A DNA stretch of 22,173 bases from a virus. Location: IMG/VR virus record IMGVR_UViG_3300030085_003395, positions 3,679-25,851 of that record; one strand, 5' to 3'. The position numbers and the translations under genes were made by a program. The notes beneath the pieces are model-generated. The model made no database searches. It worked only from the letters and a program-made list of their open reading frames with translations, and was not told the DNA's origin. The number at the start of each line of letters is the position of its first letter. Position 1 is the first letter of the stretch. Shown piece after piece: positions 1 to 22,173 of this stretch.

Positions 1-101
1 AACTGCTCATCACATACATTGATGTCGATGGCAGGGAAACCTAATCTACGAAGAGCATAATTTTTTAACTCTGTTTTAGAAGCGGGTTTTGTAGCAGACA
101 T
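1..101 (-). CDS. 13: Probable neck protein gp13, N-terminal 33 codons (partial)
   Basis: The ATG at 101 lies 5 bases after the fibre gene stop, and the frame is open to the window edge. The visible residues read MSATKPASKTELKNYALRRL and then GFPAIDINVCDEQ. The pattern (T/K)ELKxYxLRRLGxPxxxINVxxxQ is what I recall at the start of T4-like gp13, the neck protein that with gp14 closes the filled head and binds the tail. Position supports this: in T4, gene 13 follows the gp8-gp12/wac block. No Shine-Dalgarno sequence is seen; translation probably depends on the preceding gene. Only a third or less of the usual protein is visible, so the assignment rests on a short segment and synteny. Confidence 0.7.
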   Translation of the reverse strand, partial: MSATKPASKTELKNYALRRLGFPAIDINVCDEQ

Positions 102-5425: not shown

Positions 5426-5635
5426 TCATTCTGCGTCTTCTTCATCTGGAGGAGCGGACATAGTTTGCTCCTCCGAATAATATTCAAGAGTTTCAATCGC
5501 ACCCTGAAGTTTCAAGGCAGTGATTTCATTCTCTTTAATTTTTTCTGCAAGTTTTTTATTCTCTTCTACAACTGCAGCAAAACGCTCTTTAAACTGCCCA
5601 AGCATTTCATCTTGGGATACCTTTTCAATCGTCAT
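5426..5635 (-). CDS. Small acidic coiled-coil protein, unknown function
   Basis: 69 aa. Its ATG lies 11 bases inside the end of the 84-aa gene in another frame, so the two are probably co-translated. Residues about 10-52 (EMLGQFKERFAAVVEENKKL onward) predict a continuous coiled coil. The tail APPDEEDAE is acidic and probably disordered. There is no Shine-Dalgarno sequence. It is the last gene before the terminator. Coupling, size and coiled-coil content suggest it could pair with the 84-aa protein or act as a fibre assembly chaperone; no family is recognised. Confidence 0.72.
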   Translation of the reverse strand: MTIEKVSQDEMLGQFKERFAAVVEENKKLAEKIKENEITALKLQGAIETLEYYSEEQTMSAPPDEEDAE

Positions 5636-5879
5636 GATGTTTATTTTGATTTTGGACTAACGTTAGTAAGAGTGACTTGATATCACTCATTTCAGATTTT
5701 AACTGAGAAACCTCTTTTTGTAAAGTCTCTTTCTCAGTTTTCGCTTTTTGGCGTCCATTGTAGGATGCCATATATTTATCATATTCGGATTTGTTTCCGT
5801 TTACAATAGCATTAGTGGAGGGGTCTCTATACCACCCCTCCTTTCCATCAACAGGAATTAGATCTTCAAAGTCATTCAT
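5625..5879 (-). CDS. Small coiled-coil protein, unknown function
   Basis: 84 aa. The start overlaps the stop of the 2439-aa gene (TAATG), a classic translational-coupling arrangement. The N-terminus contains EGWYRDPSTNAIVNGNKSEY (14-33), a conserved-looking globular patch. Residues about 45-76 form an amphipathic heptad pattern (LQKEVSQLKSEMSDIKSLLL) that predicts a coiled coil. Small proteins with the same YRDP...I...SEY plus coiled-coil layout occur in T4-like cyanophages to my recollection, without a known role. Position between two giant fibre-like proteins suggests an assembly factor or a minor structural part, but this is a guess. Confidence 0.75.
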   Translation of the reverse strand: MNDFEDLIPVDGKEGWYRDPSTNAIVNGNKSEYDKYMASYNGRQKAKTEKETLQKEVSQLKSEMSDIKSLLLTLVQNQNKHHDD

Positions 5880-8800
5880 TAGGTTGCGAGAGCAATAGCA
5901 CGAAGGTCAGCAATTAGTGGGATTCTTGCCTGGTTTGAAGATCTCATTACAATCTTGATTTGGAATGCATTGAAATTCAAACCACTTACCTCGTAGTAAT
6001 AATCTTTCCAAAGAATTTCTTCTGAAGGAGAAGAATCATACTGAAGAGGTGCTGGCATTAGAGTCCAACCAAGGTCTTCAGGAGTTGCGGTATCACCTGT
6101 GTTGAAAGTTCTGTAATACAGTTTCACTTCAGACTGTGGTGGACGAGACATCTGGAAGTCTACTCTAATAGATCTAGACTCTCTAATCAATCTCGCCAAA
6201 CGAGTTACATAAACCGCATCGTTTTGATCACCGAATGGTAATGTAGAAACATCCTGAGTAGGATCAATATTATTTTGTTGACCATATGGATCGGGTCCAC
6301 CAGGCCATTCATTAATACGATTAGTTGTTGTAATCAATGAGCATCTGTCAAGGTCAACAACAGGAGAAAGGGTTGCCTTCTCTGTAGAAAGATCGATCAA
6401 CATGGTAAGAGACTTACCACCATTCAGTTTGTTTTGCTCGTTAATTTCAGAGCAAATCATTCTTGGATTATCAAAGAAGTTGAGATCATTCAGAGTGATA
6501 GGCGTATATGTGCCATCATTAATGAATGATTGTTGATCAACATTAGCAGATCCATCACCAATAGATGTAGCACTGGTTGTATTAATTCTTGCAGTAATCT
6601 CCGTTTCAGGAAGATTCATTGTAGAAATAGTAGGTGTTAGAGTCTCAAACTGGACGTTTTGAGTAGCAAATACATTGCTGCCGCCACCTCTGATACCATT
6701 GGTTGCTACACCATTGATATGTAGCATATAAGTATCCAACCAAGGACAAGAAATACTAGTATGTGTTTTATTAAGATCGATTAGAGGAATGCCATCTAAA
6801 TTATAACACTCAACAACAGCTCCTGATGTATGAGATACATCATCTGTGCCATTTGCTCCTCTACCCGAAGTTGCAACTGTGATAGTTTTACCATCAGCAG
6901 AGATATCAGAATACTGAATAATCTCATCTCCGATCTTAAGATAACCAGGATTGACAATACCATATGCAGATCCATTGATAATCTTATGGAATTCGCTAGC
7001 ATCATCTACAGAAATTGAAGTAGATCCAGCAGATAATGCACTGGTCAGAGTAGTAGATCCAATCTCAGATACAATACCTTCAACCTTGATATTGTTAGTT
7101 CTGTTATGCATACCATGATTTCTATGGTATACCAAAACTTCTCTCTCATCATTTCCATAAGAAGGTGTAGCAGATAGATAACCTCCGATTGTATCTCCGC
7201 TGTAAGTTGCACTTGCAAAAACGCAAGTTGCACCGCCAGGTTCTTCAATCGTTTCACTTGCACTAAACTGACCACTCACATAATTTACAGTGATATCACT
7301 TCCATTAATTTCAGTAATAATACCAGTTGCTGCAGATGTTTGACCAGTAACTGTATCACCAACTTCAAATGTGCCGATGATTGTATTTACGGTAAGGACA
7401 GCAATTGCTTGAGAAGATAGGATATTGTATGTGTTTGAGGTGCCTTGAATCCAAGATCCACTAACATTATCAACGGTGATAATATCAGTAGTTTCATCAT
7501 ATTCAACAACTGTTGCTTGTGCAGTTGTTGTTACCTGAGTTAGTTGTGCGCCTGCAGTATAAGTTGAGTTGGAAAGACCAGACTGCAACTGAAGTTTTGG
7601 TTTGATGGTCAAAATAGGATTGTTAATCATCCTATGAATACCACCATTACCTCTACCCTGAGGACTATTATTCAGAGCAACTGTGCCTGTGCTTTCGGTG
7701 AAGTTTGCGCGATAAACCGTAAACTTCAAATCTTCATACTGGTCAGCAGTCCAGGTAGATGCGTTTTGTGACTTGAAGAGCACACCAGCATAAGGTTGCT
7801 CAGAGATCGTCCTAGTGCCAGTAACATCAACGTCACCCATTCTAGAGATCCAAACCTTATACTCGTTAGAGTCAGATAGAAGCACGAAACAGTATTCAAC
7901 AGAAGACTTAATGTAAACAGGTGCTCTGAATGTAAACTTGGTTGGGATTGCTGCAGTTTCAGAAGTATCTACTTCATCAGGTGTGATGGTAACATCAGAG
8001 AAAGGAAGAATAGTCTTTGTGGGATAACCATTTTCCATGGTCCTGATCTGCATCGAGATAGGAATATTGGTGTCTTTGGTATTGAAGAAGATCTCAACAC
8101 CTGTCAAGAATACACCACCTTCCTCTTCAACAATGAAGGACTGTGCAAGAGGGTCATACCAACCAACCTGTCTCTCTTCAACTCTAGTTGTCTGCACAAC
8201 TCTTTCTTCACTAACAGTGTCTTGGACAATCTCAGCGTTTCTAACTGCAAGAATATTTTCTTGGACAACACGAAGTGTGCCGCTTGCAGAGTAAGTTGTC
8301 TGTGCAGAAGATTCTACAGTGCCAGGTTGAGAACTATTAGTTTCATTTGTGGTGAATCTAACGTTTCTTGTGCCTGTTGCCCAACGGGGATTAGCATCAT
8401 TCTTAGGCGAAGGAATGAAGAATGTGCCTTTCAAAGATCCAACGTTATCAGTGAGGAGACGACGATCTCTTACAACTGCTCTAGCACCAGAAGTTTGACC
8501 AACTAAAATTTCGCCAACTTGCATGTTACCGAAGAAGTCTGGAGAAATATTCTCAGCAATAGCAGTAATATCATGATTTAGATAAGCAGTCTGAGAAGAG
8601 TAGGTTGTGGGAAGTGCCTCAGTGCCTGTGCCATAAGGATTAGTTTTATATCCATCATCAGGAGCAACAACCTTTATCTGACATCCAGAAGTTTCACCAA
8701 TTACAGTTTCACCGACAACAAAAGGAGTTTCATTTGTTCTTGCATCTTCAGCAGAATTTTTTACAAGCTCAATAACTTTTGGTGTAATATAATTTGTAAT

Positions 8801-14772: not shown

Positions 14773-17700
14773 TCAATAATTGTCTGTGGTTCTAATTAAG
14801 GTGGTTGATTTAACCGACTTAATTCTGTAAGCTGCACCCGCATTACCAACAATTCTTTCACCACCCAAAATTGCTTGGACAACTGCACCTGTGCCAGTTG
14901 TATCACCAACAGCAGGAGTAACAGTTGCAGTTGGATGATAAACACCCAGTGTCACTTCACCAGGATATCCATATCCACCATCAGTAACAGTTACTGATGC
15001 AATCTGGTCACCAGCAGTGGTCATATTAGCTGTCACAACTGCAGGGACATCTCCGATTGCTTCAATCGCAATAGTTGGTGTTGCAGAATAGTTAATACCA
15101 GGATCTTGGACAATAAAGTCTACAATGGTGCTATCTACAGAGAAGTTATACAAGTAACCACCGTTTCCTAGATTCACATCACCAGTAAAGTATGGTGTGA
15201 GTTGATTAACAGTCAATACACCTGTGCTGGAGAACCAAGAAACGACTCTTGCAGTAATTCCAGATTCCTCACCAGTAATCAATTCACCTGTGCTGTAGTT
15301 GAGTCCATTGCCACCATCAGTATCCAATGTAATTTCAATAAGTGCTTCGTGTGGGACACCCTCACTTAGAGCACCTGCTTCAATAATAGTTGCAAACTTA
15401 ACTGGAATAGCAGCATCTTTTACCTGATCTCCAACTTGGAATAGTGTTGTATTTTGACCACCAAATGTTTCTTCAATACCATATAGGGAGCTGTAGATAC
15501 CTCCATCAAGATTGATTTGATTCAGATAATCAGTGTTTGTATTGACAAGATCGGGAATGCCATCACCTTCATTATTCTCACCTTCATCATCATCTTCAAA
15601 TTTAAAATCAACTAACGTAGATAATGGATTCGTCAATAGTGCAATTGTTGATCCCGTTTCTGCTACAAGGACATGAGGTTGCTCCTGTCCGCTGCTACTT
15701 GCAATCCCTGCATCAAATTGGACAGTAGCATCTTCAGTAGAAGGAATACCACCATCAATGAATGCTAATTCGTCAACCTCAAACGTAACTAGAAGTTCTC
15801 TATTGCTGGGATTCCAATCATAAACTTTTGCAATTTTATTATTAGAGTTTTCGACTCTACGAATTACTCTATCACCAACGTTAAATTCATATTGAGATAT
15901 ACCGTCTTGGTCGTTTTGTGATAAGTCTAAAACAACTCTTTGATCATATTTAAAAGTCGTGCCTCTAGTAACACCAGTAAAACTATTGAAAGTCTTACCT
16001 GTATAGAATACAGATTCATTATTGATAACTAGATCTCCAGATCCTGGGAATCCGTTAGTGCTTCTTACAAAAATTTCATCATCATTAGAGGTTAGTGCTT
16101 TTACTAGACCAGTTTGATAATATGCTTCAGAGTTAAATGATTGTCTAGAGTTGACCTTTCTCTTGAGATTTACCAACTTGGTAAAGATTACATTTGGTGG
16201 TGACGTATATCCTTGACCAGGATCCGTAATTTCAATACCAGTAACCTTGCCTTGGTCGATGATAGGAACACCTTTAGCACCTTCACCGCCACCACCAGTA
16301 AATAATACATATGGAGGCTCAAGATAGAAATCACCTTCGTCAATCATGCTGACTCTAGTAACCTTACCAGTGGTATCAACTTTCGCTCTACCTCTAGCAC
16401 CTTCACCGCCACCACCTTCAAAAATCAGTGTTGGTGGTGTTGCAAACTGAGTGCCCTCATTCAAAAGCACCAAACTGGTAACACTCTGCGTACCTGGATT
16501 TGTAGTAGCGCCGCTACCTTCTCCACCTAAGATTTCTGCTCTGGTTGCTCCAAAGTAACCATCACCAGTATTAATCATATTAATGTAAGAAACTCGTCCC
16601 TGATTATCAAGGACAACTTTTCCTTCTGCTCCCGCAGCAAAATCATTAACTACAGCAGGCACTTCACTATTCTGGAAGTATGGAATACCATACATCTCAG
16701 GACCAATTGCATAAGGATATTCAGGATCTCCATTATCATCAATACACATAAAGTATGCGTATGTGCCATTTGGATATTCTGGAGTTACTGCAAATCTACC
16801 ATTATATTCATCCAAATCACCCACCGTAGCATCGTAGATGTAATCTTGAATTAGATCTCCTAAAACATATCCTTCTTGGACACATCTGAATCCATATAGA
16901 GATGCAGTTGTAGAGAAAGTATACAGAAGATTTGGCGCATCTACTTTTGGAGCAAACCTAACTTCTCTACTAGTAGCTGTAGCAAACTGTGCTGTATAAA
17001 CTGATTCTGTTACTTGAGATCCATCAATAAAATACTGGACCCCTGAGTCAAAAATAGTTCCTGAAGCATGTGTGCCATCAGAAGTTTCACTAAAGTAGAA
17101 TGGTGCTCCTGCATTAGATGCATCAGTTAAATTAAAGACATATGTCTTTCCTCTACCAAGAGATAAGAATGATGGTTTCGATCCATCAATATAATATTCA
17201 CCATTAACAGTAGTAACTGTATAATTTACTGTTTCGACAGTGTTGATTTGTGGTCTATTACCATCAGTTTCAACACCTTGCTTAAATCTAAAAGAAGATC
17301 TTACATTAATTACAGATCCATTATCATCATATCCATATGGTCCATAAATTGGATATCCATCAAAAGATAATCCTAGAATTTTTGAGTGTCCATCAGGATG
17401 TCTATCATATTCAGGATCACCGTTTGAATTTGTAAAGAAATTGTAGATATAATAATCATTTTCCATCTCCTCCTCTTCTATTTGAGGATCAAGGATCATA
17501 TAACCTTCATCACCTGTATAACCAGACATGTATTGATGATGCTGGCAGTAGTAATAGATCCTATTAGTCTCATCCTCATGCATGAGGAATATAGGTTGAT
17601 ACAACTGCTCATAGTCCGCAGCAGGAGCATTTGAAGCACCAGTGCTATTGTAATACAGTGTGCCAGGAGTAGGATTCAGCGTCCCATCGGGAGTAGTGCT

Positions 17701-18906
17701 GAATTGCATTGGGTGACCAATATTGCTTGGATCAGATTGATCCCAAATAATCAAGTAATTTCTCTGTACCTGAATATTTTGTGGAGAAAGATAATATGTG
17801 TTTGGAATAAAGTCTCCAAACTCATGTGCCTCAGGACCAAAGTCGATATAAAAAATACCGTTTGGAAATAAAATCGGATCATCGGATACTGTCATCCTGA
17901 ATCCTGTAGATCCAACTAAAACATCTCCAACTTGAAGTGGAGATCCAGTAACTTGTCTCAGATAAACTTTAGTAATAGCACCTTGCTGATCTGTGATAAT
18001 CTTTGCAATTTGTGCGGAGGTGCTTCCATTTAAAACATCAACAGTTCTTCCAACTTCAACGTCCCCAAGATTTTGGATGATATTAGTTACACTAATTAAG
18101 ATATTGTCTAATTCAGTCTTAATTCTCCAAGTAAAGACCTCTTCAAAACCAGTATCAAGCACATCATTCTTTCTACGCCAAGCATCCAAAAAGTTGCTAG
18201 TGTGATAGTAATAAACCCCATTATCAATAACACCATCATGAGTATCCATATTTTTCAGATATGGATGCTTTACTACATCAATATTAAAATTGACTGGTGC
18301 GTTTCCTGCTGATCCCCAATCAGGTGTATGAAGAAGACCACCATTTGCAAGGATGCCAAAAGATTTATTAGTCTGCTTTAATCTTAGACCTGGATTTGGG
18401 ACATCTTTAGATCCACGATAGATAAATGTCCTATCGAATGTTTGATCTACTAATACCTTATTAGCATATGTTACTTCACTAGCAAGATATGATGGTTTTA
18501 AATTATTATCACTTTGTATTCTGAGTCTATCAGTAATATCACCATTAATTACTGTAAACGCAGCAGTGGTTTCTGAGTTGGGATCCGATTGCCAAATTCT
18601 TTTGATATCAAAAGATGGAGCAATAGTATTTGTATCTTGCTGAGGAATAAAATTAATTCTCAGAGGATCATATCCACGACCAGACTCTAATACTCTGACA
18701 TGGACAATTCTTCCAGAGTCGTCGTCAATGATTGGATATAATAATGCTTCTTGATCTGGAGTGCCACAACCAGATACAGTAAGTCTAGGAGGGTCGGAAG
18801 ATACATATCCACTTCCACCTTCTTTTACAATAACCGATCTTACTCCAAATACATCATTAAAAATTGGCTCGATTACTGCGCCCGATCCAGGAATTTCTCT
18901 AGCCAT
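14773..18906 (-). CDS. Large YHYH-domain virion protein with two cupredoxin-like modules (possible gp7 position)
   Basis: 1377 aa, starting 4 bases after the 407-aa gene stop with no recognisable Shine-Dalgarno sequence. Regions in order: GSGY-type repeats (about 25-80); a unique region with YYYH (232-235); a cupredoxin-like module (about 365-465) with His398, Cys454, His457 and Met460; the first half of a YHYH domain with DGHSKILGLSFDGYPIYGPY (505-524); an insertion carrying a second cupredoxin-like module without ligands (about 558-677); the second YHYH half with LDEYNGRFAVTPEYPNGTYA (698-717); GSGY/GGGGEGA repeats (about 770-910); a GxExixY module (940-985); an acidic GDGIPD calcium-site-like loop (1103-1126); and further repeats to the end. 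It lies directly upstream of gp8, where T4 has gp7 (1032 aa), so a baseplate wedge role is plausible, but I see no sequence similarity to T4 gp7. Gene existence is certain; function is inferred. Confidence 0.85.
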   Translation of the reverse strand: MAREIPGSGAVIEPIFNDVFGVRSVIVKEGGSGYVSSDPPRLTVSGCGTPDQEALLYPIIDDDSGRIVHVRVLESGRGYDPLRINFIPQQDTNTIAPSFDIKRIWQSDPNSETTAAFTVINGDITDRLRIQSDNNLKPSYLASEVTYANKVLVDQTFDRTFIYRGSKDVPNPGLRLKQTNKSFGILANGGLLHTPDWGSAGNAPVNFNIDVVKHPYLKNMDTHDGVIDNGVYYYHTSNFLDAWRRKNDVLDTGFEEVFTWRIKTELDNILISVTNIIQNLGDVEVGRTVDVLNGSTSAQIAKIITDQQGAITKVYLRQVTGSPLQVGDVLVGSTGFRMTVSDDPILFPNGIFYIDFGPEAHEFGDFIPNTYYLSPQNIQVQRNYLIIWDQSDPSNIGHPMQFSTTPDGTLNPTPGTLYYNSTGASNAPAADYEQLYQPIFLMHEDETNRIYYYCQHHQYMSGYTGDEGYMILDPQIEEEEMENDYYIYNFFTNSNGDPEYDRHPDGHSKILGLSFDGYPIYGPYGYDDNGSVINVRSSFRFKQGVETDGNRPQINTVETVNYTVTTVNGEYYIDGSKPSFLSLGRGKTYVFNLTDASNAGAPFYFSETSDGTHASGTIFDSGVQYFIDGSQVTESVYTAQFATATSREVRFAPKVDAPNLLYTFSTTASLYGFRCVQEGYVLGDLIQDYIYDATVGDLDEYNGRFAVTPEYPNGTYAYFMCIDDNGDPEYPYAIGPEMYGIPYFQNSEVPAVVNDFAAGAEGKVVLDNQGRVSYINMINTGDGYFGATRAEILGGEGSGATTNPGTQSVTSLVLLNEGTQFATPPTLIFEGGGGEGARGRAKVDTTGKVTRVSMIDEGDFYLEPPYVLFTGGGGEGAKGVPIIDQGKVTGIEITDPGQGYTSPPNVIFTKLVNLKRKVNSRQSFNSEAYYQTGLVKALTSNDDEIFVRSTNGFPGSGDLVINNESVFYTGKTFNSFTGVTRGTTFKYDQRVVLDLSQNDQDGISQYEFNVGDRVIRRVENSNNKIAKVYDWNPSNRELLVTFEVDELAFIDGGIPSTEDATVQFDAGIASSSGQEQPHVLVAETGSTIALLTNPLSTLVDFKFEDDDEGENNEGDGIPDLVNTNTDYLNQINLDGGIYSSLYGIEETFGGQNTTLFQVGDQVKDAAIPVKFATIIEAGALSEGVPHEALIEITLDTDGGNGLNYSTGELITGEESGITARVVSWFSSTGVLTVNQLTPYFTGDVNLGNGGYLYNFSVDSTIVDFIVQDPGINYSATPTIAIEAIGDVPAVVTANMTTAGDQIASVTVTDGGYGYPGEVTLGVYHPTATVTPAVGDTTGTGAVVQAILGGERIVGNAGAAYRIKSVKSTTLIRTTDNY
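16687..17418 (-). other. YHYH-family domain split by an insertion
   Basis: Residues 497-740 of the 1377-aa protein. The first half has DGHSKILGLSFDGYPIYGPY, the family core. The second half has LDEYNGRFAVTPE, NGTYAYF and PYAIGPEMYG, which match the family's LDxxNGRF, YHYH and PYxxG block. The eponymous YHYH motif reads YAYF (716-719), so both histidines are lost. About 160 residues separate the halves, much of it a cupredoxin-like module lacking ligands. Confidence 0.75.
17512..17814 (-). other. Cupredoxin-like module with complete putative ligands in the YHYH protein
   Basis: Residues about 365-465 of the 1377-aa protein. The pattern is a strand (YLIIWDQSD, 384-392), His398 in GHPMQF, then YYYCQHHQYMSG with Cys454, His457 and Met460, again Cys-x2-His-x2-Met. 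It lies immediately before the YHYH domain. Cys454 is encoded by TGC at 17547-17545. Confidence 0.55.
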
Positions 18907-18910
18907 TTAA

Positions 18911-20134
18911 TTAACTTACTACGTTGATAGTTCCATTCATAAGTGCATGGATAGTACACTGATAATACAATACATTTGGAGCATCCATTGGGACTGTCCA
19001 ATACAAGACTGCAGTTCCACTTCCAGACTGACCATCGGTATAAGGATTACCAGAAAGACCTTGAGTGGTTTGAATTCTAAATGGATGTGAAGTGCCTTGC
19101 ACCGTATTATCAAATGCGTATGTAAACCCTCTATACACATAGAGAGTGGGATCATTAGCAGTTGTTGGGAATCCTGGTCCATCAAACGTATAATCAGATG
19201 CCTGATTTGCCGATAACTCCCACCAAATGATTGGACTATTTGTTGCTGTCCAATCAGTGCCATTGTAAAACAGAGAGTTGCCCTGGACGATACCTGAGGT
19301 GAAATCAGTATCGGTCATCCCAGCAAATGTTGTGATGGGAGTGCCAGTATAGTTGATTGTTAATTCATCACCAACAATTGCAGTGGCAATATCTGTGCCA
19401 CCACTGATTGTAAGAGTGTCTGTTTGTGAATTTGCAGTTGTAGATCCACTATCAGAATCAATAGTAGAAAACAGGTTAATAGATGCAAGACCCGACTGAT
19501 CATCACCAGGAACCCAATTTGTCCCATTCCACTTCAGGACTTGATTGTTTGTCGGAGCGTTTGTAGTAACGTCTACATTAGTAAGATCGTCAATACCAGA
19601 ATATTGAGTTAGTAGTTTTACACGACTATCACCAGCACCACCTGCAGTGATATTCATGTTTACATAAGGACTATCATCACCATTGATAGTATAAAAATAA
19701 CCCAGGTTTCCTGTAGGAGCTGGTGCATTAGCAAGAAGACTATACTGATTCTTATAAAGAATATTAGTTGGAAAAACTACTTGATTGTCAGTGCCATTAA
19801 ATGTTGCGGTGTTAGATCCATAACCAATCGTGACATTTCCCGTGCCATTAGGAGCGACATTAATATTACCATTTGCGGATGAAACAATGTTAAAACTGTT
19901 TACATCCAGATTTGTCTCCAACTGATTGATGAAGGATGGGACAAAATTCACACCATTATATTTCAACACCTGATTAGTTGCAGCACTAGTCAAACTAATC
20001 TGAGTGTTAACGCCATTACCAATGGCGCTATAAATTTCAGCAAAATTATCATTAATCTTATCACCGCCAGTGCGGAGAGTATCTCCGCTACTGTCGTTGG
20101 CAAATGTGCCTAAATTTAGAGACTGATACGCCAT
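18911..20134 (-). CDS. Fibre-like virion protein with C-terminal cupredoxin-like domain
   Basis: 407 aa, starting at an ATG 24 bases after the previous stop and just downstream of a consensus late promoter. Residues 5-38 (LGTFANDSSGDTLR then KINDNFAEIY) match a motif I know from the N-termini of T4-like cyanophage fibre and structural proteins. Three short motifs recur: NQVLKYNGVNFVP (54-66), NQVLKWNGTNWVP (197-209) and SLFYNGTDWT (287-296). Residues 303-407 resemble a cupredoxin: a TLYVYRGFTYAF strand (330-341), His350 in SHPF, a DAPN turn (384-387), then YYQCTIHALMNG with Cys393, His396 and Met399. That Cys-x2-His-x2-Met spacing is the one seen in amicyanin. No signal peptide is present, so it is not an exported electron carrier; a copper-binding or purely structural fold on the virion is inferred. 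It is followed after 4 bases by the 1377-aa gene, presumably in the same transcript. Confidence 0.85.
   Translation of the reverse strand: MAYQSLNLGTFANDSSGDTLRTGGDKINDNFAEIYSAIGNGVNTQISLTSAATNQVLKYNGVNFVPSFINQLETNLDVNSFNIVSSANGNINVAPNGTGNVTIGYGSNTATFNGTDNQVVFPTNILYKNQYSLLANAPAPTGNLGYFYTINGDDSPYVNMNITAGGAGDSRVKLLTQYSGIDDLTNVDVTTNAPTNNQVLKWNGTNWVPGDDQSGLASINLFSTIDSDSGSTTANSQTDTLTISGGTDIATAIVGDELTINYTGTPITTFAGMTDTDFTSGIVQGNSLFYNGTDWTATNSPIIWWELSANQASDYTFDGPGFPTTANDPTLYVYRGFTYAFDNTVQGTSHPFRIQTTQGLSGNPYTDGQSGSGTAVLYWTVPMDAPNVLYYQCTIHALMNGTINVVS
18914..19228 (-). other. Cupredoxin-like domain with complete putative type-1 copper ligands
   Basis: C-terminal domain of the 407-aa protein, residues 303-407. 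Putative ligands are His350 (codon 19087-19085), Cys393 (18958-18956), His396 and Met399. A strand-rich frame ends in the usual G-x-I-x-V terminal strand. The fold is assigned by motif only. Confidence 0.6.
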
Positions 20135-20155: not shown

Positions 20156-20163
20156 TATTTATA
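20156..20163 (-). promoter_or_regulatory. T4-type late promoter box (TATAAATA)
   Basis: The minus strand reads TATAAATA here, the exact T4 late consensus recognised by the gp55 sigma factor with gp33 and the gp45 clamp. It overlaps the stop codon of the upstream structural gene and lies 21 bases before the ATG at 20134. Counting from the T4 model, transcription would begin near 20150, giving a leader of about 16 bases without a Shine-Dalgarno sequence. Confidence 0.75.
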
Positions 20164-22173
20164 GGATCTCTGGATCAATTGCTTCTTCGCCATAAAGACT
20201 TAGATCAGGTGCGGTCCAGTCATCAGGTACGGATGTTTCAACTGCAACCTCTGGATTTTGATAACCAGTGCCGCCGTTACCAACAACCACGCTACCAACG
20301 CCAACTAGTGCCTTGATATTTGCGTCAAATCCGCTGATAGAGTCAATTCTAACATTGGGTCTGGAGGTATAACCAGATCCGCCAGAAGTAACATTAACCT
20401 CGCTAATAAATCCAGAATTCAAGATTACCTGTGCGTCCGCACCCGTGCCGAATACCGACCCGAGATAGTCGAAAGTAATTAGAGAGTTGGAAGATTCAAT
20501 AACCGCAACTTCACGATCTTCTGTCTCACCTTGAATCGTGATGAAGTCACCAGCTTCGATTGGTGGGACAACTTCAGCAGCGTCAACGTCTGCTTCAGAT
20601 CCGACGTAAGAGAATGCGACGAAGGTCGATCCAACGCGAGGAATTTCAGAGAAGATGATTCTAGAACCAACAATCTCAAAACCAACTCCAGGTTCTTGTA
20701 ACACACCATTCAAGGAAACAATGATATTGTTTTCTGGTCTAATCGTAGAAGACTGGACACCTTCCGTCAATGTTAGCGAGTAGAAAATATCATCGCGCTT
20801 GAGGTTGAAGGTTTGACGTAGAGAGTCAAATTCAAACGAGATATCATCCAACTGTCTCAATTTACCAATATAGAATCCATTGAAGGAAGATCCTTGTGTT
20901 GGAGCTTCAGTAAACTGAATCTTATCAGAGAATGTAGTGTATCCACCAGATGCACCTGGAGGTTGCAGAATGCCATTAATGAAGACCAAGATGTGACCTT
21001 CTGTGTCTGGAATGTATTGATTGCCATTATCAATCGTCAGATCAAATGTGGTCTGAGTGCCATCAAAACCAACGAAGAATCTCTTAACTCTTGCCTTCAA
21101 CTCAACATATTCATTGATCGATGCTTTGAATCCATTGGAAGACTTGATACTATCTCTGCCAGAGATAGATCCAACAATATCACTTAGATAAAGTCTCTTA
21201 GAAATACCAATGGTTTCAATATTTTGAATCAATGCACCACCCGCGCCCGCGTAGGAAGTTTTACCAACAATTTGAGCACGACCTTCAGGGAATCCTTGAC
21301 CCTCAAGATAGTATCCAATCTCATCACCGTTGGTGATACTTCCCTCAATCACGGTTGCGTAGATATAATTATTATCAAGATCTAATTCAGTAACAATTGC
21401 ATAATTTTGAGAATCTCTTGCGCCATTTACAATCTTGTAAATGTATTTGCCAACTTCAAATGTATTCAAATTATTTACAATCGAGATTGCAAATCTGTCA
21501 TGACCAAGAGATGAAATTCTATCACCAACCTCAATATCGATTGTGCCAGCAAATTGCTGAATATCGACATATGCTCTAGAACTTTCAGGATATACAACTG
21601 CAGTCTTTTCAAAGTCACCAGTGATTGTATCTGTATCAAGCGTAAGTTTACCGCCAGCATTTGACGTTACTGCCGCTTCATTTGTAATCTGCTGGACACT
21701 ATCTCCAGTTGCTCCTGAAGTGTAAGCAAGGAATTCTACATTAGGTGTAAAGATACCCTTAGTATCAATTAATTGCAGTCTAAAGTCAATATTTCCAATT
21801 TGTGCTGATGCGCCACTTGTTTGACCTTCCATTGTATCGAGAAGTGCCCAAGCACCTGCACCCGCATTCATAGCAATATCGACATATTCATAATTAGGAT
21901 CGGTGTGTGTTGCATAAACAACACCAACAACTGATGCATCACCTTGTTTTTGAATTGTTTCACCAATCTGGAAGACTCCACCAGCACCTTGAGTAATTTC
22001 TCCCTCAACTCTTAATCTCTGGAAGATCTTAACGATCCTGCCTTCATTAGTAGTGAGAGATTCAACTTCAGCAGAGATATCAGATTGCTTACCATACATA
22101 TAGTCTGCACTAAACAATCCACCACCCAGAGGAGTAGGAATACTTCTATCACCATAAACTTTAGATGGGATAG
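20159..22173 (-). CDS. Large virion structural protein, N-terminus outside the window (partial)
   Basis: The frame stays open to the window edge. The first in-frame candidate start inside the window is a TTG at 22117, but 18 further sense codons lie upstream (IPSKVYGDRS then IPTPLGGG), so the true start is beyond 22173. Residue numbers count from that TTG. Residues 93-108 hold a GQTSGA-type beta motif. Residues 346-421 and 427-507 are two diverged copies of a module centred on FINGILQPPG and SLNGVLQEPG, each followed by an I-x-F-x-E-x-P strand. The C-terminus has two GSGY/GTGY motifs (near 579-583 and 615-619). No catalytic residues, signal peptide or membrane segment are visible. It ends 24 bases before the 407-aa gene, and a late promoter overlaps its stop. 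By T4 synteny it lies in the gp6/gp7 region, but I see no gp6 signature. Baseplate or fibre structural role is inferred from content and neighbours. Confidence 0.8.
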   Translation of the reverse strand, partial: IPSKVYGDRSIPTPLGGGLFSADYMYGKQSDISAEVESLTTNEGRIVKIFQRLRVEGEITQGAGGVFQIGETIQKQGDASVVGVVYATHTDPNYEYVDIAMNAGAGAWALLDTMEGQTSGASAQIGNIDFRLQLIDTKGIFTPNVEFLAYTSGATGDSVQQITNEAAVTSNAGGKLTLDTDTITGDFEKTAVVYPESSRAYVDIQQFAGTIDIEVGDRISSLGHDRFAISIVNNLNTFEVGKYIYKIVNGARDSQNYAIVTELDLDNNYIYATVIEGSITNGDEIGYYLEGQGFPEGRAQIVGKTSYAGAGGALIQNIETIGISKRLYLSDIVGSISGRDSIKSSNGFKASINEYVELKARVKRFFVGFDGTQTTFDLTIDNGNQYIPDTEGHILVFINGILQPPGASGGYTTFSDKIQFTEAPTQGSSFNGFYIGKLRQLDDISFEFDSLRQTFNLKRDDIFYSLTLTEGVQSSTIRPENNIIVSLNGVLQEPGVGFEIVGSRIIFSEIPRVGSTFVAFSYVGSEADVDAAEVVPPIEAGDFITIQGETEDREVAVIESSNSLITFDYLGSVFGTGADAQVILNSGFISEVNVTSGGSGYTSRPNVRIDSISGFDANIKALVGVGSVVVGNGGTGYQNPEVAVETSVPDDWTAPDLSLYGEEAIDPEIL
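20597..21082 (-). repeat. Two tandem 'NGxLQxPG' protein modules
   Basis: In the partial upstream protein, residues 346-421 and 427-507 (counted from the TTG at 22117) share a pattern: a Q-T-F strand, then an I-x-V-x-x-N-G-x-L-Q-x-P-G turn, then I-x-F-x-E-x-P, then G-S-x-F-x-x-F-Y-x-G or the like. Similarity is at protein level only and the bases have diverged. Such NGxLQ modules recur in phage tail and fibre proteins. Confidence 0.6.

Follow-up and report, generated by a model that had tools for sequence, protein, structure and literature searches.

Phage T4 carries gp9 in its baseplate, and the C-terminus of T4 gp9 is a beta-sandwich that has not been described as a copper protein. Marine T4-like cyanophages, which are very abundant viruses, have a counterpart of this protein. 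Metal sites in the tail apparatus of marine phages have been discussed before, since HxH iron sites on their tail fibres were proposed to matter for host contact under the Trojan Horse/Ferrojan hypothesis (PMC11705849). No prior description of a cupredoxin in a phage tail was found in the literature searched, in which subscription papers were mostly outside coverage. To our knowledge, no blue-copper centres in virions have been known before. Here we propose, with a probability of about 0.62, that the part of gp9 that forms the long-tail-fibre socket in T4 is a predicted type-1 copper cupredoxin in marine T4-like cyanophages and that it is copper-loaded on the virion.

The analysed DNA (the window, 22,173 nucleotides) belongs to a source record of 25.9 kb, in which the gene order was that of the baseplate region of Synechococcus phage S-MbCM6 (Kyanoviridae). 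Judged from its genes, the source phage is a T4-like cyanophage. The gene for a gp9-type baseplate wedge-tail fibre connector of 407 aa was located at 18911..20134 on the minus strand and was followed by a PHROG 708 gene and then a gp8-type gene, the same order as in S-MbCM6. Pfam T4_gp9_10_N (PF07880) matched residues 4-63 of the ORF (E 4.8e-7), PHROG 677 "baseplate wedge tail fiber protein connector" covered it over its whole length (residues 1-406, E 5.4e-179), and its counterparts in isolate phages were labelled "baseplate wedge tail fiber connector" or gp9. The ORF thus combined a gp9/10-type N-terminal domain with a position among baseplate wedge genes. The sequence-only reading, made earlier on the same DNA, had given the 407-aa ORF and its named residues at the right positions (residues 303-407 corresponding to 18914-19228) and had correctly noted that the protein has no signal peptide. 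Its label "fibre-like protein", however, is better read as the connector between the baseplate and the long tail fibre, because of the T4_gp9_10_N and PHROG 677 matches, with which the isolate annotations agree. By homology with T4, gp9 and its cupredoxin domain would be present on the virion; no structure of a cyanophage gp9 was found, and its arrangement as a trimer holding the long tail fibre is taken from T4. Separately, an ORF at 20159-22117 (TTG start) matched PHROG 701 only at the C-terminal end of the profile (5494-6135 of 6136), so that the ORF probably represents the final portion of a far larger virion protein extending beyond the window.

The C-terminal domain of gp9 (residues 300-407; 18914..19237, minus strand) was modelled with AlphaFold from an alignment of 40 homologues, and the model was all beta with a pLDDT of 95.3 and a pTM of 0.87. 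When it was compared with the PDB using Foldseek, 21 matches were obtained at E<=0.001, nearly all of them to cupredoxins (E 3e-5), including Hyphomicrobium nitrite reductase, rusticyanin, pseudoazurin, small laccase, AcoP and plastocyanin. Amicyanin (1aaj) narrowly missed this cut-off at 1.3e-3, and TM-scores to solved cupredoxins were moderate, mostly 0.46-0.58. Significant sequence matches to cupredoxins were given only by a profile of 22 diverse relatives, in which the best PDB match was plastocyanin 2plt (E 1.7e-5), followed by copper nitrite reductase (CuNIR; 8e-5), amicyanin (2.9e-4) and rusticyanin (4e-4). The single gp9 sequence of the window had no significant PDB or Pfam cupredoxin match, and the profile of close gp9 relatives was also not significant (best cupredoxin E 0.08). 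The Pfam Copper-bind domain was found in 9 of the 22 diverse relatives (best E 6.7e-8). Alignment of amicyanin with the gp9-domain family by hhalign, for which an amicyanin sequence matching PDB 1aac over all 105 residues was used, gave E 4.4e-6 (87%). Both a predicted Greek-key beta-sandwich and sequence homology therefore characterize this domain, and by its model and its profile matches it is a cupredoxin in fold and family. The cupredoxin fold and the relationship to plastocyanin and amicyanin, both suggested in the sequence-only reading, were borne out by the Foldseek matches and by the diverse-relatives profile, respectively.

In alignments with plastocyanin and amicyanin, four gp9 residues fell on the copper-ligand columns, namely His350 (19085..19087) on that of the N-terminal His, Cys393 (18956..18958) on that of Cys, His396 (18947..18949), within the ligand loop, on that of the second His and Met399 (18938..18940) on that of the axial Met, all encoded on the minus strand. 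Cys393 ended strand 89-94 of the domain model. The Cys-x2-His-x2-Met loop aligned without a gap to amicyanin and with a two-residue gap to plastocyanin. Two His, one Cys and an axial Met thus occupied the canonical order and loop positions, and by these alignments the domain holds a complete predicted type-1 (blue) copper ligand set. The column matches and the secondary-structure positions in the model would fit a site at which the four side chains come together. Chance occurrence of the motif was ruled out, because the pattern H-(30..65)-C-x2-H-x2-M was absent from all other ORFs of at least 200 aa in the retrieved loci (601 ORFs, 349,016 aa, with family members left out of the count).

Conservation of the four residues was surveyed at several distances. 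All four were invariant in 82/82 gp9 sequences, which were collected with search words that excluded the ligand residues. Their codons varied among 69 distinct proteins (CAT/CAC 42/27 and 41/28 for the two His, TGT/TGC 46/23 for Cys), indicating that purifying selection, rather than recent descent, accounts for the invariance. The gp9 proteins of S-WAM1, P-TIM40 and ACG-2014d, with N-terminal identities down to 34%, also kept all four ligands. When relatives with identities as low as about 26-30% were compared, invariance was limited to six columns, of which four were the ligands; these relatives had been selected beforehand for the first His and the Cys, and the second His and the Met played no part in that selection. 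In the wider domain family all four ligands were kept in 315 of 365 distinct domains, a figure biased upward because part of the set was fetched with words including the Cys-His loop, and nearly all losses were in one other domain of the neighbouring PHROG 708 protein. The amicyanin-type spacing Cys-x2-His-x2-Met, which had been pointed out in the sequence-only reading, was present in 313 of 316 family members. That reading had left a vestigial site as one option; for the gp9 domain the invariant ligands together with their varying synonymous codons argue against it.

These ligands point to copper as the predicted occupant of the site. It is conceivable that the natural metal is instead zinc, cobalt or iron, comparable to the tail-fibre iron that would exploit host uptake receptors in the Trojan Horse/Ferrojan scheme, and cupredoxin sites are indeed able to take other divalent metals. 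A metal site in marine phage tails has also been put forward already (HxH iron, PMC11705849), but the ligands found here form a type-1 set of one Cys, one Met and two His rather than an HxH site, and the homology of the gp9 domain is to copper proteins. We consider another natural metal very unlikely.

The gene following gp9 encodes a PHROG 708 baseplate wedge protein of 1377 aa (14773..18906, minus strand; PHROG 708 E 0) and starts 4 bases past the gp9 stop codon. It contains a YHYH domain (Pfam, E 3.9e-17), for which the function of a zinc-binding tail hydrolase has been predicted (PMC7824862). A second, diverged cupredoxin-related domain was detected at residues 345-481 of this protein (17464..17874, minus strand). 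By hhalign it matched the gp9 domain with 95-97% probability (E 1.6e-8 and 2.5e-10) and with the ligands aligned, and His398, Cys454 and His457 were invariant in 118/118 homologues and Met460 in 116/116. Its AlphaFold model had a pLDDT of 92.8; Foldseek gave no PDB match at E<=0.001, and the best weak matches were Ig-like domains. A third region, residues 558-667 (16906..17235, minus strand), was identified by profile matches as a decayed cupredoxin-like domain (i-E 7.1e-5 with the iterated profile and 0.013 with a non-circular one) in which the ligand positions were not His or Cys in nearly all homologues. In the homologue L164, all four ligands were kept at this place (2.6e-11). Both the second invariant His/Cys/His/Met set and the ligand-less copy had been missed in the sequence-only reading.

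The ligand-less copy bears on the question of whether the gp9 domain needs a metal at all. The domain could be a metal-free Greek-key beta-sandwich, a building block used like the Ig-like domains of other phage virion proteins, whose four residues are retained for reasons of folding or packing; fibres, spikes and proteases are among the many unrelated virion proteins that have this fold, and the copy at residues 558-667 has persisted after losing its ligands. On the other hand, what is invariant in gp9 and its diverse relatives goes beyond generic core residues and comprises the type-1 ligands, with the tight Cys-x2-His-x2-Met loop kept in all but three of the family members counted above. We regard a metal-free role as unlikely. 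The decayed copy shows that the fold can lose its site, which makes the retention of the site in gp9 meaningful. The gp9 connector appears to have exchanged its fibre-socket domain for a complete predicted blue-copper domain, which selection maintains.

The distribution of the domain was determined by tblastn. Matches were found in 329 of 50,697 INPHARED phage records, nearly all from Synechococcus or Prochlorococcus phages, although the records are not independent, since a few isolation campaigns yielded many closely related phages among them. More distant members were found in Prochlorococcus podoviruses and in single pelagiphage, actinophage and uncultured records. In Methylophilales phage Melnitz-1 (Kyanoviridae), which has a heterotrophic host, the gp9-like protein kept the N-terminus and the domain was missing. 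By these searches the domain is nearly restricted to phages of marine picocyanobacteria. Domain-bearing proteins were annotated as baseplate, fibre or hypothetical proteins, and never as copper proteins among the annotations seen. In the T4-like Synechococcus phage S-CREM2, from another cluster, four baseplate proteins were examined and none contained the domain, so it may not be needed to infect Synechococcus. Virion proteomics of S-CREM2 was considered as evidence that the domain is present on virions and was rejected, because its proteins at the matching place, a PHROG 219 wedge protein and another large baseplate protein, are without the domain.

This host range, together with the ligand set, raises the question of electron transfer. 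Type-1 sites containing Met are the classical electron-transfer sites, and the domain could exchange electrons with partners in the host envelope or periplasm, acting as a redox sensor or as a trigger of tail contraction. Its near restriction to phages of photosynthetic hosts and the presence of one such ligand set in each of two neighbouring baseplate proteins would fit this function. However, no redox partner or pathway was visible in the sequence, S-CREM2 infects Synechococcus with baseplate-wedge proteins in which the domain was not found, and copper-bearing domains can act in binding alone. We therefore judge an electron-transfer device to be quite improbable.

Regarding origin, the closest relatives of the gp9 domain are, by sequence comparison, members of a domain family in phage virion proteins and not the phage plastocyanin encoded by petE. 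Recent capture of host plastocyanin (petE) was not supported, as its loop is spaced differently and the gp9 domain is closest to other domains of phage virion proteins. Relatives were rare in picocyanobacterial genomes (14 of 201 searched), and some of these may be plastocyanin itself. One of them, L376 from genome G158, is a stand-alone protein of 139 aa with a signal-peptide-like start and a Cys-x2-His-x4-Met loop, and a host protein of this kind is a possible origin of the phage domains. In another picocyanobacterial protein, L387, a related domain with the ligand motif was located behind an apparent cyclophilin-type prolyl isomerase. Among phage proteins, a cupredoxin domain formed the C-terminus of an annotated subtilisin-like protease of Synechococcus phage S-H9-1 (L373, 1318-3324), and other cyanophage S8 peptidases were among the structure matches of the gp9 domain. 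In a viral structure library, the gp9 model was also matched by small giant-virus proteins, namely Pithovirus/Marseillevirus LCPAC/LCMAC entries named "beta-sandwich protein" (E 3e-7 to 4e-6).

For the copper-loaded cupredoxin that we prefer, the following sequence of events can be envisaged. gp9 would join the baseplate through its T4-like N-terminus, and, since T4 has six gp9 trimers, about 18 such domains would be expected per particle. Folding in the cytosol of the host would probably take place in the absence of copper, which the domain might acquire later from the lysate or from sea water. Once bound, copper would lock the ligand loops, and the resulting patch on the surface, stable and probably redox-active, would lie where the tail fibres dock or come into contact with the host envelope. 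We regard it as most likely that the domain would act, where the fibres attach, as a copper-bearing module for docking or for contact with the host. In a more elaborate version, which we regard as unlikely, gp9 and its neighbour would provide two kinds of copper centre, some tens of copper atoms per particle, that serve when the phage meets its photosynthetic host, one option being a redox-sensitive switch that governs attachment or tail firing; we know of no virion with a metalloprotein function of this kind.

If copper is bound, these particles would be, as far as we know, the first virions with blue-copper centres, the finding would be relevant to how picocyanobacteria are recognized as hosts, and the particles could be carriers of copper in sea water. 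At present the databases name the protein only "baseplate wedge tail fiber connector" despite its apparent blue-copper domain.

Compared with known systems, the gp9 domain resembles amicyanin of Paracoccus denitrificans and its relatives in the cupredoxin fold and in the gap-free His...Cys-x2-His-x2-Met arrangement. Overall identity to amicyanin 1aaj is low (19% by Foldseek), and amicyanin, which has a signal peptide, carries electrons as a free periplasmic protein, whereas the gp9 domain is the C-terminus of a baseplate protein. Plastocyanin, including that encoded by petE of some cyanophages, shares the same four ligand columns; it differs in its Cys-x2-His-x4-Met loop and is a soluble lumenal carrier outside the virion. 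Phage T4 gp9 corresponds to the cyanophage protein in its N-terminal domain, as recognized by Pfam and PHROG, and in its location among the baseplate wedge genes, but the C-terminus of the cyanophage gp9 is a predicted cupredoxin. The fibres with proposed HxH iron sites have in common with the arrangement proposed here a metal site on the tail apparatus of a marine phage, although the fold, the ligands and the expected metal are all different.
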